Shown here piece after piece: positions 18,423-38,601 of a stretch of 64,000 nucleotides of DNA; position 1 is the stretch's first letter, and each line of letters opens with the position of its first letter. Source of the DNA: Jeotgalibaca arthritidis (lineage in GTDB: Bacteria; Bacillota; Bacilli; Lactobacillales; Aerococcaceae); NCBI RefSeq assembly GCF_011100465.1, contig NZ_CP049740.1, positions 1,852,001 to 1,916,000 on the forward strand, in the 5' to 3' direction. The notes below the pieces were generated by a model. The model was not told where the DNA came from. It worked only from the letters and a program-made list of their open reading frames with translations, and did not search any database. The translations under genes and the position numbers were made by a program.

Positions 18423-18450
18423 GCTAGGACGATTTTGTCCCAGTCTTTTT
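18423..18450 (+). terminator. radC terminator
   Basis: GGAC pairs with GTCC in an imperfect extended stem followed by TCTTTTTG. Confidence 0.6.
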
Positions 18451-18456
18451 GTATAG

Positions 18457-19116
<660 letters not shown>

Positions 19117-29172: not shown

Positions 29173-30366
29173 ATGTCAAAAATTATTGCAATTAACGCTG
29201 GAAGTTCCAGTCTGAAATTTACTTTATACCAAATGCCAGAAGAAGAAGCTGTTTCATCAGGTATTATTGAGAGAATTGGTTTGAAAGATTCTATTTTCAC
29301 AATTAAATATGGTGAAGGTAAAAAGTATTCCGTTACAGAAGATATTGATAACCATGAAATTGCTGTTGAGAAATTAATGACTCAATTAGTAGAACTAGGA
29401 ATTATCACAGACTTCAACGAAATCACTGGCGTTGGACACCGTATTGTAGCTGGTGGAGAAGACTTCAAAGAATCAGCACTAATTGATGACGAAGCTCTTG
29501 CTAAGATTGAAGCACTAGGTGAATTAGCACCACTGCACAACCCTGCAAATGCAACAGGAATTCGTGCCTTCAAAAAATTATTACCAGAAATCACAAGCGT
29601 AGCTGTTTTCGATACAGCATTCCACGCCGACATGCCAGCTGTAAACTACCTATATAGCATTCCAATGGAGTACTATGAAGATTTCGCAGCTCGTAAGTAC
29701 GGTGCTCACGGAACAAGCCACCAATACGTTTCAGAACGTGCAGCTGAGTTATTAGGCAAACCACTAGAAGACTTGAAAATCATTACTTGTCACTTAGGTA
29801 ATGGTGCGTCTATTACTGCTGTAGATGGCGGAAAATCAATCGATACATCTATGGGATTCACACCACTAGCTGGTCTTACAATGGGAACTCGCTCTGGTGA
29901 TATCGATGCATCATTATTACCATACTTGATGAATAAACTTGAAATTACTGATATTAATGAAATGGTTAATATTTTAAACAAAAAATCAGGTTTACTAGGT
30001 CTTTCTGGTGTATCAAGTGATATGCGTGACGTTGAAACTGAAGCTGAAGCTGGAGATGAGCGTTCACAACTAGCATTAGATATTTTCTACAACCGCGTTC
30101 AAAAATACATTGGTCAATACATTGCAACAATGAATGGTGTTGATGCAATTGTCTTCACTGCTGGTATTGGTGAAAACTCTGCTATGACACGTCAAATCAT
30201 CATCGACGGCATTAGCTGGTTCGGTTGTGACATTGACGAAGAAAGAAATAACGTTCGTGGAGAAGAAAGAATCATCTCAACAGATGCTGCTAAAGTACAA
30301 GTTCTTCTTATTCCAACTGATGAAGAAAAAGTTATCTTAAATGACGTTATTCGTTTAAGCAAATAA
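29173..30366 (+). CDS. ackA: acetate kinase
   Basis: AckA makes ATP and acetate from acetyl phosphate and ADP, a main energy step of fermentation. The 397-residue protein has the signatures [12 protein letters not shown] at the start, [10 protein letters not shown] and HLGNGASI, and the C-terminal [10 protein letters not shown]. Start preceded by TTAGGAGCG. It fits with the partial pdhA at the window end, which would feed acetyl-CoA into the same route. Confidence 0.97.
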
Positions 30367-30376
30367 GTTAAATAGA

Positions 30377-30412
30377 AAATGACGGAAGGGCATGAGTCCT
30401 TCCGTCATTTTT
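30377..30412 (+). terminator. ackA terminator
   Basis: AAAATGACGGAAGG pairs with CCTTCCGTCATTTT, with TTATAG after. Confidence 0.8.
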
Positions 30413-30623
30413 TATAGTCTAGGGGATTATAAGTTCAGCCATCAATGTCTAGCTCCCAAGTCCTGGCCTACTGAAAAAAAGATAAATTTGCCCCATTGCG
30501 CGCTTCGCTGCTCGCTAACGCATATCATTCGACTAACCCGCTGAAGCGCGAAGTCTCCTGACAATTCAGGGTCAAATTTCCTATTTTTTCATAGGCCAAG
30601 GCGGACTTGTCCGCTTTTCTTAT
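30409..30623. repeat. dispersed structured repeat, long copy
   Basis: This is the full form of the element also present at 8351-8515. It holds 50 extra bases (30514-30563) whose GAAGCGCG arm pairs with CGCGCTTC of the shared part. The outer halves form a long imperfect hairpin, and the end carries GCGGAC-TT-GTCCGC with a T-rich tail. It lies directly after the ackA terminator. It is probably a non-autonomous, MITE-like or regulatory element; no coding frame is present. Confidence 0.85.
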
Positions 30624-30628
30624 AGTCA

Positions 30629-30770
30629 GCTGTACGATACAGCAGTAATAATAAAAAGATAAAAAGTTAATAAAAGAGTTGTATCTTACATTTCTGCCCT
30701 CAAATGTATCATACAGTTCGATATCTTAGTGCTGTATCTTACATTTGGCTATGTAAATGTAAGATACAGC
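30629..30770. repeat. cluster of five TGTA-N3-TACA sites with two hairpins
   Basis: TGTA-N3-TACA occurs at 30631, 30680, 30705, 30733 and 30758. The last two are the arms of a perfect 16-bp hairpin (GCTGTATCTTACATTT at 30731-30746 and its complement at 30755-30770), followed by CAGTTTTT. The second and third form a similar imperfect hairpin. The same 11-mer appears once more at 38480. The flanking genes ackA and usp converge here, so this is not an ordinary promoter operator. Confidence 0.7.
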
Positions 30771-30802
30771 CAGTTTTTAAACGCTGTATCGACAAAAATG
30801 GC

Positions 30803-30836
30803 ATAAAAAAACAAGGTTGGCTTAAATTGCCAACCT
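30803..30836 (-). terminator. usp terminator
   Basis: On the minus strand AGGTTGGC and GCCAACCT arms are followed by a T-rich tract. Confidence 0.75.
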
Positions 30837-30850
30837 CGTAACTTTTTTGA

Positions 30851-31312
30851 TTAGTTTACTTTTTTATTTTCCAAATCAGTTCGCACAACCATGACGTCAC
30901 ATGGGGCATGGCGAATCACATATTCAGAAACCGAGCCGATGAAGAGACGTTCAACAGCATTTAAGCCTGTTGCGCCAATCATAATTAAGTCGGCATGGTA
31001 TTCTTCAGGTAAATCTTTACCAATCATCACTTTAGGTGAGCCGTATTCAATGCGACTTTCAATGTCGCTTAAGCCAGCATCACGAGCGACTTTTTCATAG
31101 CTATCCATCATGACTTTTGTCTGACGGATAATTTCGTCTGTAAAACTACCTTCGAAGCCTGAAGGGGTTTGGATGGCTCTGGTATCGATAACGTGGACGA
31201 TAACCAGTTTTGAATGATTTCGTTTTGAAACTTCAATTGCTTTTCGAAATGCCAATTCTGACTCGCTTGAACCATCGACAGGGGCCAAAATTGTTGTGTA
31301 TTCTTGTAACAT
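30851..31312 (-). CDS. universal stress protein, UspA family
   Basis: The 153-residue single-domain Usp has the ATP-binding motif G-2x-G-9x-G-S (GATGLNAVERLFIGS), so it is probably of the nucleotide-binding subgroup. I use ATG 31312 because GGAGTGA lies just upstream; GTG 31321 overlaps that ribosome binding site. Its exact role is unknown. Together with rarA it flanks the probable 6S RNA locus. Confidence 0.92.
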   Translation of the reverse strand: MLQEYTTILAPVDGSSESELAFRKAIEVSKRNHSKLVIVHVIDTRAIQTPSGFEGSFTDEIIRQTKVMMDSYEKVARDAGLSDIESRIEYGSPKVMIGKDLPEEYHADLIMIGATGLNAVERLFIGSVSEYVIRHAPCDVMVVRTDLENKKVN

Positions 31313-31392
31313 AACGATCACTCCATTTCTTCTTTGCTTACATCTTTATTGTAACGCATTTTTGAAGAAATAAAAAGGAAGTAATGAAAGCG

Positions 31393-31683
31393 TTATTTTA
31401 ATCGTTTAGATAGACTGTTTGAAAAATAAGCTGAATAGAGCGAAACGATCACGATGAAGACAAGATAAACGATTTTTTGATCGACAATTAAGGTAATGAC
31501 TGATGATAGGGCAAAGGCTGCAAAAATTATCCCATTTATTGTAAAGAATTGATTTAATTGTTGTTTTTGAGCATCTGTGAATTTTTCTGGAAATAAAAGA
31601 AAAGCATCGTTAGCTTTCTTAGTCAAAAACCAACTAACGACTAGTAAGAGTATGCCAAATGTGATTATTAATCCTTTAATCAT
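31393..31683 (-). CDS. small membrane protein, 96 aa, unknown
   Basis: The product has three hydrophobic segments (about residues 3-22, 48-67 and 70-88) and a basic C-terminus (NSLSKRLK). The start ATG 31683 has AAAGGAG upstream. It is directly downstream of the probable 6S RNA terminator in the same direction. I do not recognise the family. Confidence 0.65.
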   Translation of the reverse strand: MIKGLIITFGILLLVVSWFLTKKANDAFLLFPEKFTDAQKQQLNQFFTINGIIFAAFALSSVITLIVDQKIVYLVFIVIVSLYSAYFSNSLSKRLK

Positions 31684-31699
31684 CAGAAGAAGAACTCCT

Positions 31700-31732
31700 T
31701 TCAAAAATAAAAAGCCGCTCAAAGAGCGGCTT
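31700..31732 (-). terminator. terminator of the probable 6S RNA
   Basis: On the minus strand AAGCCGCTC and GAGCGGCTT arms are followed by TTTATTTTTG. Confidence 0.8.
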
Positions 31733-31890
31733 CTAAAGTATAGAACTTTATAGAGAAAATCCGATGGTGCCGGTTTATGTTATTCTACTAGTTTTGAACC
31801 CGCAGTATTAGCAGGTGGGCTCCACAGAATGTCTTGCTAGCTTCCACATGACATGGCTTGCTATCCGACATAAATCAAGGATCCCAATAT
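31712..31890 (-). ncRNA. ssrS: probable 6S RNA
   Basis: A gene-free stretch of about 180 bases between rarA and a small membrane protein gene ends in its own strong terminator and has TTGACC upstream at 31906-31911. Distant segments pair (TTTATGT near the 5' end with ACATAAA near 31775). In Firmicutes, 6S RNA, which binds RNA polymerase and lowers sigma-A transcription, is found beside rarA, and I recall universal stress protein genes as neighbours. The -10 spacing is not clean, so the 5' end is uncertain. Identification is by location, size and terminator. Confidence 0.6.
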
Positions 31891-32046
31891 AGTAATTATT
31901 TGTTCGGTCAACACATTGAGAATATATCGTACACCTCAGAACTTCTTATAAGTATAGTAGCACACACCTGAATAGGATGCAAGAATTCTTACTTAATTTT
32001 TATTTAAAAAGCTGTTTTAATAAGGATGTAAGCGTAACCCATTTTT

Positions 32047-33321
32047 TTATTTTCCAGATGATTTTCTTAGAGAATCTGCTTGTTGAGCAAGTGCTTTTTC
32101 ATATTTACCAGTGATCACTGCTTCGTAATACTGAGACGATTTTAGACTGTCTGGCAAGTATTGTTGCGCCACCCAGTGGTTGTCGTAAGCATGTGGGTAT
32201 TTATAATTAACGCCTCTGCCTAATTTTTCAGCACCTTGATAATGAGCATCTTTGAGGTGTAAGGGCACATCTCCTGATTTTCCCTGACGAACGTCATTTA
32301 AAGCTGCGTCAATGGCATCAATCGCTGAATTTGATTTGGGAGATAGGGCTAAATCAATGACTGCGTGTGCCAGTGGAATTCGTGCTTCCGGTAGACCTAA
32401 TTTTTCAGCAGCTTGAACGGCAGATACTGTTCGTGCCACGGCTGCTGGGTTACCAAATCCAATATCCTCATAAGCGCAAACTAATAGTCTTCTGCATATA
32501 ATAACCAGTTCACCAGCTTCAATTAAACGAGCCAAGTAGTGAAGAGAGGCATCGACATCACTACCACGTAATGATTTTTGAAAAGCAGAAATAACGTCAT
32601 AATGAGCATCGCCATCTTTATCATGGACCAGTGCTTTTCTTTGTAAGCATTCCTCAGCAATAGTAAGCGTAATATGAATGTCGCCCTCATCATTTTCAGG
32701 AGTTGAACGAGCGGCTAATTCTAATGCATTAAGTGACCCTCTTAAATCACCCATAGAACTTCTTGCGAAATGCTGGAGAGCATTATCATCCAATTTAATC
32801 GCTAAGTGGCCAAGACCATTTTTTTCATCTGTTAAGGCGCGCTGTAAAGCTACTTCAATATCAGTTATAGCAAGCGGTTTGACCTCAAAAATTTGCGTTC
32901 GACTTCTAATCGCAGGGTTAATACTAATATAAGGGTTCTCTGTTGTTGCGCCAATGAGAACAATGAGGCCACTTTCTAAATGAGGAAGTAAAAAATCTTG
33001 TTTAGGCTTATCTAAACGATGAATTTCATCGAGTAACAAAATAACCTGACCTGAAAACTTAGCTTCTTCAACAACAATTTGTAAATCTTTTTTAGAATCA
33101 GTTGCAGCATTTAATTGGCGGAAGGCAGACTGTGTTGATCCTGAAATGGCACTTGCGATACTTGTTTTCCCTGTACCTGGTGGACCATAGAGAATCATCG
33201 ATGATAGCATGCGAGCGTCTACCATTCGTCTAATAATTTTATTTGGACCAACTAAGTGTTGCTGTCCGACAACTTCGTCGATATTGGTTGGTCTCATGCG
33301 AAAGGCGAGCGGTTTTTTCAT
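32047..33321 (-). CDS. rarA: replication-associated recombination protein RarA (MgsA)
   Basis: RarA is a clamp-loader-like AAA+ ATPase that acts at stalled forks. The 424-residue protein has Walker A GPPGTGKTS, Walker B LLDEIHR and the C-terminal MgsA tetramerisation region. ATG 33321 is preceded by AAAGGAATAACC, while the upstream in-frame ATG 33339 overlaps that site. Single gene on the minus strand. Confidence 0.95.
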   Translation of the reverse strand: MKKPLAFRMRPTNIDEVVGQQHLVGPNKIIRRMVDARMLSSMILYGPPGTGKTSIASAISGSTQSAFRQLNAATDSKKDLQIVVEEAKFSGQVILLLDEIHRLDKPKQDFLLPHLESGLIVLIGATTENPYISINPAIRSRTQIFEVKPLAITDIEVALQRALTDEKNGLGHLAIKLDDNALQHFARSSMGDLRGSLNALELAARSTPENDEGDIHITLTIAEECLQRKALVHDKDGDAHYDVISAFQKSLRGSDVDASLHYLARLIEAGELVIICRRLLVCAYEDIGFGNPAAVARTVSAVQAAEKLGLPEARIPLAHAVIDLALSPKSNSAIDAIDAALNDVRQGKSGDVPLHLKDAHYQGAEKLGRGVNYKYPHAYDNHWVAQQYLPDSLKSSQYYEAVITGKYEKALAQQADSLRKSSGK

Positions 33322-38473: not shown

Positions 38474-38601
38474 TGCAGGTGTAAGATACAATTTAAAATG
38501 ACGGGCTCTATATACAAAACAGACTAAGCTGTTCTTATTGTCACATAGGGATTAAATGTGAACAAACATTGTGTTTTCAACTTTTATAGTCAATATCTCT
38601 A

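Follow-up and report, generated by a model that had tools for sequence, protein, structure and literature searches.

Why should one short motif be packed five times between the ends of two genes? The question is raised by a 64-kb stretch of the Jeotgalibaca arthritidis genome (G000, a single contig of 2,348,096 bases), which spans positions 1852001–1916000 and is called here the window. Between a converging ackA gene and a usp gene it holds a cluster of TGTA-N3-TACA motifs, for which the first-pass annotation suggested a protein-titrating decoy, a small RNA locus or a repeat element. We found that the cluster consists of three hairpins and is one copy of a palindromic repeat scattered over the genome, with the build of BIMEs or chained REPINs. 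Of the three suggestions, the repeat element is borne out, the decoy is not supported and a small RNA looks doubtful. Comparison of sequences within the genus suggests that the array belongs to a wider class, whose arms differ by family and by species while the alternation of the arms and a period of 51–53 bp are kept.

Three hairpins between ackA and usp

The left gene, ackA for acetate kinase (Pfam Acetate_kinase), lies on the plus strand at 29173–30366 and the right gene, usp for a universal stress protein (Pfam Usp), on the minus strand at 30851–31321, and they converge as annotated at first. Among named sequences, the AckA protein is closest to that of J. caeni (88%). The five exact sites start at 30631, 30680, 30705, 30733 and 30758 and cover 138 bases. 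An additional site noted earlier at 38480 is present, and two unlisted ones at 18450 and 49425 bring the window total to eight, against 0.95 expected and with none of 100 shuffles reaching eight. The hairpins read from the letters are also there. The perfect one pairs 30731–30746 with 30755–30770 (16/16 complementary), and two others pair 30680–30693 with 30702–30715 (86%) and 30701–30716 with 30732–30747 (88%).

A sixth arm, CTGTATCGACAA at 30784–30795, is part of the cluster, and the six arms make three hairpins in a row. Hairpin 1 (30631–30690) joins the arms at 30631–30642 (TGTACGATACAG) and 30679–30690 (TTGTATCTTACA), the inner hairpin 2 (30705–30743) those at 30705–30716 (TGTATCATACAG) and 30732–30743 (CTGTATCTTACA) over a loop of 15 bases, and the outer hairpin 3 (30758–30795) those at 30758–30769 (TGTAAGATACAG) and 30784–30795 over a loop of 14 bases with a T5 tract. 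Tail-to-tail spacers of 14 bases each separate hairpins 1 and 2 (30691–30704) and hairpins 2 and 3 (30744–30757), and the second spacer with its flanks forms the perfect 16-bp stem of 30731–30770. The window array follows the plan of other three-hairpin copies, with the A/T-rich loop of hairpin 1 enlarged to 36 bases, 22 above the usual 14, and with a sixth arm that is not an exact TGTA-N3-TACA.

A directional unit on a fixed grid

The first-pass annotation proposed a genome-wide count and would have dropped the cluster if the motif were equally frequent in random AT-rich intergenic sequence. Genome-wide, however, the motif is above chance: it has 101 sites where the reversed control pattern has 30, and many of these 101 stand in clusters of fixed spacing. 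When the clusters are set side by side, a single directional unit emerges, AAATGTAAGATACAGC, in alternating orientation. Counted over pairs of units with at most two mismatches, the spacing from a plus to a minus unit is 26 in 24/40, 27 in 15/40 and 48 in 1/40, that from a minus to a plus unit is 26 in 28/31, and units on the same strand are 52 or 53 apart in 46/51.

The window cluster is one of 31 array loci, a locus being counted if it has a recognised hairpin and lies in the stretches chosen through motif hits, with lone arms excluded. At least three hairpins are found in 11 of them and one or two in the remainder. At the three-hairpin loci the outer loops are mostly of 14 bases and the inner ones of 15. 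A run of four or more A or T occurs in 31/42 outer loops, where shuffles average 10.5 and 0/1000 reach 31, and in 1/15 inner loops.

Conservation was scored over 132 arms from 66 loosely defined hairpins, a few of which are probably chance; a stricter rule leaves 57 hairpins and 114 arms. The conserved core is GATACAG with 1.39–2.0 bits at its positions. Position 4, within TGTA, has 0.6 bit and its mirror position 8 has 1.77 bits. This asymmetry around the dyad indicates that the TGTA-N3-TACA symmetry is incidental, a by-product of the longer directional unit. Pairing beyond column conservation is weak, being confined to positions 4 (35 vs 25.7 expected) and 5 (38 vs 30.7) of the 12, and related copies account for part of it. 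The arms thus appear to be conserved in sequence and not only as stems.

Eight related copies align well and differ by whole hairpin units. Their borders are not crisp, because they share a terminator-like flank on the left and, in several of them, palindromes on the right. A long palindrome, GCAATGAAACAATC...GATTGTTTCATTGC or a close variant, is shared to the right of the array at four loci (L045, L053, L054 and L055). In the window, lone or degenerate arms at 38480–38490 and 18450–18460 also sit after a T-tract and are possibly remnants of the GATACAG repeat.

Among the genomes searched, the repeat is confined to this one. G000 has 37 copies of its core 13-mer, CTGTATCTTACAT, the 79 relatives that make up the rest of the 80 genomes have none, and GATACAR..YTGTATC pairs number 51 in G000 vs 1–7 in each of five congeners. 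The exact tail-to-tail pairs gave no match in the genome_contigs scan, a set from which the window's own genome is possibly absent, and the exact pair pattern gave none in viral_contigs. The interval 30620–30810 had no blastn match in plasmids or phages.

Placement behind terminators

With open reading frames taken by a simple longest-ORF rule, 18 of the 31 loci lie between convergent and 12 between codirectional genes, one is inside a doubtful ORF of 75 aa and none is between divergent genes. The background, intergenic spaces over 400 kb of G000, has 29 convergent, 109 codirectional and 46 divergent. By Fisher's test on 30 loci, with the one in the ORF dropped, the convergent excess has p = 9e-7 and the divergent lack p = 4e-4. 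The opinion that the motifs are not ordinary operators fits this placement, 0/30 loci being between divergent genes. Eight proteins from three of the stretches with arrays are ordinary ones, namely Acyl-CoA dehydrogenase, L31, thioredoxin-like, glycosyl hydrolase 1, adenylosuccinate synthetase, VanZ, acetate kinase and Usp.

A terminator-like hairpin with a T-tract, reading towards the array from the 3′ side of a gene, lies within 100 bp at all 31 loci. The distance from the stem end to the first arm is 9–21 bp in 29/31, and 53 and 66 bp in the other two. In mononucleotide shuffles, the sole control here, a mean of 0.65 and a maximum of 3 of the 31 loci had such a hairpin. On the left side of the window array, the terminator call probably scores the end of a separate 201-bp repeat, while the presumed ackA terminator, an inverted repeat with 18-nt arms of 94% followed by a T-tract, is at 30372–30415 on the plus strand. 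On the right side, a terminator-like hairpin that scores on both strands occupies 30811–30839 in the interval to usp, 15 bp from the array.

The same geometry with other arms

At the ackA–usp site of a congener, G002, a different alternating array is found, made of GAGTGCGC/GCGCACTC, and in G001, G003, G004 and G005 no array was seen there by eye. All 39 head-head pairs of the GAGTGCGC/GCGCACTC family counted over the six genomes are in G002. In the sampled stretches of G002, with 8–24 bases allowed, its loops have 17 bases in 37/37 of one set and 18 bases in 42/42 of the other, and a site has up to 19 arms. Nine such sites comprise 5 convergent, 3 codirectional and 1 divergent. The last one, L154 (2054–2521 of G002:C1:1953000–1957600), has 19 arms with a period of 51 between apparently divergent genes and is the sole such site of the nine.

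Other families exist too. G000 itself holds a second one, AGAGGTTC, with 48 head-head pairs (compared with a single one in G001 and none in four further genomes), and a CACTGGATG family has 4 head-head pairs in G001 only. Along several units of the AGAGGTTC array at G000:C1:927029–927572, two loop types (…TTTTCGATGC and …TTTTAGGCTC) take turns, in the manner of a higher-order satellite. Two families besides GATACAG, with four loop sets between them, have a similar excess of A/T runs in three of the sets; the value of the fourth is reached by 22 of 1000 shuffles.

A de novo scan looked for an arm, a reversed arm and an arm again at any lag of 24–130, and was so strict that it missed the window array. 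In 1.49 Mb of G000, G001, G002, G004 and G005 it yielded 13 loci with a lag of 51 bp, a further 7 with 52, 2 with 50 and 1 with 53, and among the other lags only 87 exceeded two loci (4). Within the bands of 50–54 and 101–107, the five species had 4, 8, 11, 2 and 4 loci vs 0.7, 0.2, 0.1, 0.1 and 0.5 in Markov controls. Lags outside the bands gave 42 thinly spread loci vs about 13 in the controls of the five species, so ordinary hairpins make up some of what the scan picks up. Several in-band loci look like chance, namely L237, L270, both in G003 and three inside ORFs (L198, L180 and L186:17004).

Outside the genus, G008 has 3 loci in 80 kb, one of which is weak, other genera of the family have 2 chance-like loci in 407 kb, and neither the 118 kb sampled from one further family nor the 275 kb of ackA loci gave any. 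About 20 arm types, some perhaps related, were seen in the sampled congeners with a period of mostly 51–53 bp. The samples including G003 and G008 contain 34 in-band arrays, of which 25 have two flanking genes, 5 are in ORFs and 4 are at stretch edges. Those 25 are 10 convergent, 12 codirectional and 3 divergent, against a background of 97, 470 and 156 (p = 0.001 for convergent).

Comparison with BIMEs and REPINs

BIMEs and REPINs are known mainly from Gram-negative bacteria. In a BIME, REPs follow one another at regular intervals with alternating orientation; these chains are ascribed to RAYT transposases, and REPs stand on both sides of the RAYT genes (PMC2817692). A REPIN is an inverted pair of REPs around a spacer that is short and varied (PMC8049555). 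In another account, REPs sit mainly behind genes and also between convergent genes, and the CGTC REPs apparently have no dedicated transposase (PMC3733652). REPs are also reported to bind gyrase, to occur between convergent genes and to be targets of insertion sequences (PMC1525189).

The arrays resemble BIMEs in the regular alternation of units, with the spacing of 26 or 27 in 67/71 neighbour pairs on opposite strands, in the copy number, 132 arms loosely or 114 strictly vs more than 100 REPs per genome, and in the intergenic seat behind genes that are often convergent. They resemble REPINs in the inverted pairs around short, varied spacers, and REPs in being species-specific in sequence and in having been targeted by another insertion, the 201-bp repeat at locus L050. 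The near-constant loop lengths of the arrays differ from REP spacers, reported mostly as 20–100 bp, and the single period shared by about 20 unrelated arm sequences differs from both BIMEs and REPINs. Like the CGTC REPs, for which no dedicated transposase is apparent, they are palindromic repeats behind genes, but neither a CGTC nor a GTAG tag was noticed by eye in the arm list. The outer copies often have GTCGA adjoining the arm.

The six genus genomes have Y1_Tnp genes at six places: one interrupted by a stop in G000, three near-identical in G002 (96–99% over 700 bases) and one each in G001 and G004, with none in G003 or in G005, which nevertheless has arrays. Paired arms, sought as the known arm words of each genome, were beside none of the six, and a lone 8-mer of AGAGGTTC at L071 was the only arm word near any of them. 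No mobiliser was thus found and no RAYT is evident in these genomes, so we term the arrays BIME-like and do not class them as members of the REP/RAYT system. They may have had a RAYT that was later lost. A search of the open-access literature by title and abstract start returned no description of such arrays in Carnobacteriaceae, and among the Jeotgalibaca matches listed there was no repeat study by title.

Origin of the arrays and alternative explanations

The arrays are probably non-autonomous BIME-like repeats. We consider it probable, too, that they were copied by a factor that reads the arms, inserted or survived just behind terminators, and grew and shrank in steps of a unit. The factor and the copying are what we infer, as is a benefit to the host, if there is one. 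By this mechanism, the copies would have arisen by copying of a non-autonomous element, which would go in, or survive, behind terminators. The arms would be kept alike since a trans-acting, sequence-specific factor reads them, the specificity of this factor would shift between lineages, and the arrays would expand or contract by entire units. Selfish copying alone does not account for the constant period across unrelated arms.

The main alternative is that the host uses the arrays: a protein of the nucleoid or of DNA topology, such as gyrase, which is reported for E. coli REPs, would dock there and act behind terminators and in convergent intervals, in which positive supercoils accumulate. The period of 51–53 bp would be about five helical turns and hold sites and bends in phase. 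The near-constant spacing, the convergent enrichment (18/31), the A/T runs in outer loops with a similar excess in other families, and the gyrase binding and convergent placement reported for REPs all agree with it. The arms, however, are wholly different between species and even between families of one genome, unlike the conserved sites of a housekeeping protein, and 12/31 loci are codirectional, so we regard this explanation as unlikely. A role at the RNA level, the arrays serving as back-up terminators, 3′-end stabilisers or a source of small RNA from the hairpins, seems to us more doubtful still. Because every locus is behind a terminator-like hairpin, read-through RNA would carry the array; both strands of 30610–30860 fold far better than shuffles (z of −7.3 and −6.7), and the stem of 30731–30770 followed by CAGTTTTTAA scores terminator-like on the plus strand. 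Yet only positions 4 and 5 of the 12 have pair changes in excess of conservation, so the stems look conserved as sequence, promoter-like matches stay at the shuffle level (3 vs 2.4), and over 30300–32100 only a 6S RNA exceeds its Rfam cut-off, leaving no known structured RNA at the array.

That the cluster serves a dimeric regulator of TGTA-N3-TACA specificity, as operators or as a decoy, is very improbable and largely refuted, even though the 11-mer is a local palindrome and overrepresented. The dyad is not the conserved object, as its conservation is asymmetric, no locus is between divergent genes, and by eye most arm families that share the geometry lack such a dyad. The asymmetry, with the placement not upstream of genes, speaks against the operator of a dimeric regulator in particular. 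For annotators, such motif clusters are to be read as repeats, not as operators.

Returning to the copied, non-autonomous repeat, we tentatively extend it to the whole class. Short hairpin 'satellite' arrays of constant geometry (alternating arms, 51–53 bp or about five helical turns, near-fixed loops with A/T tracts, a seat behind terminators) could be a feature of Jeotgalibaca and apparently of a second genus in its family. Their arm sequence would turn over completely between lineages, and they would be upheld by a RAYT-independent, sequence-specific factor coevolving with the arms. This would be a regularity at the level of the class, with fixed geometry, changing letters and a fixed seat behind terminators. 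Here a Gram-positive genus has BIME-like arrays in several families per genome, with no linked RAYT found and with a seat 9–21 bp behind terminators. One period across unrelated sequences raises the question of how the geometry is maintained and by what means the units are copied.

The neighbouring 201-bp repeat and 6S RNA

Between the ackA terminator and the array, a separate dispersed repeat of 201 bp occupies 30420–30620 on the plus strand, with TATAG at 30413–30417 and 30621–30625. G000 has at least 40 copies of it and G001 at least 47, four further congeners have none, and the copies are often flanked by TATAG or TA. Relatives are on 13 Enterococcus plasmids, 11 with 74.7% identity over 96% and 2 with 95% over 35% of it. 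It is perhaps bcr- or EFAR-like. The EFAR of Enterococcus faecalis, a lactic acid bacterium, are modular palindromic elements that enter stem-loop targets, and the 201-bp repeat may stand nearer to EFAR than the array does.

At L050 (around G000:C1:1567182–1567426), the 201-bp repeat sits inside the loop of a GATACAG hairpin. Joining its flanks restores a loop of exactly 14 bases, so this hairpin predates the insertion. At L140, L143, L144 and in the window, the 201-bp repeat or a form of about 151 bp is found 7–14 bp from a GATACAG hairpin.

The 6S RNA of the window (Rfam RF00013, 75.3 bits, over its cut-off) is encoded on the minus strand at 31754–31945, upstream of the usp gene. We take it to be the 'Lacto-usp' motif of lactic acid bacteria.
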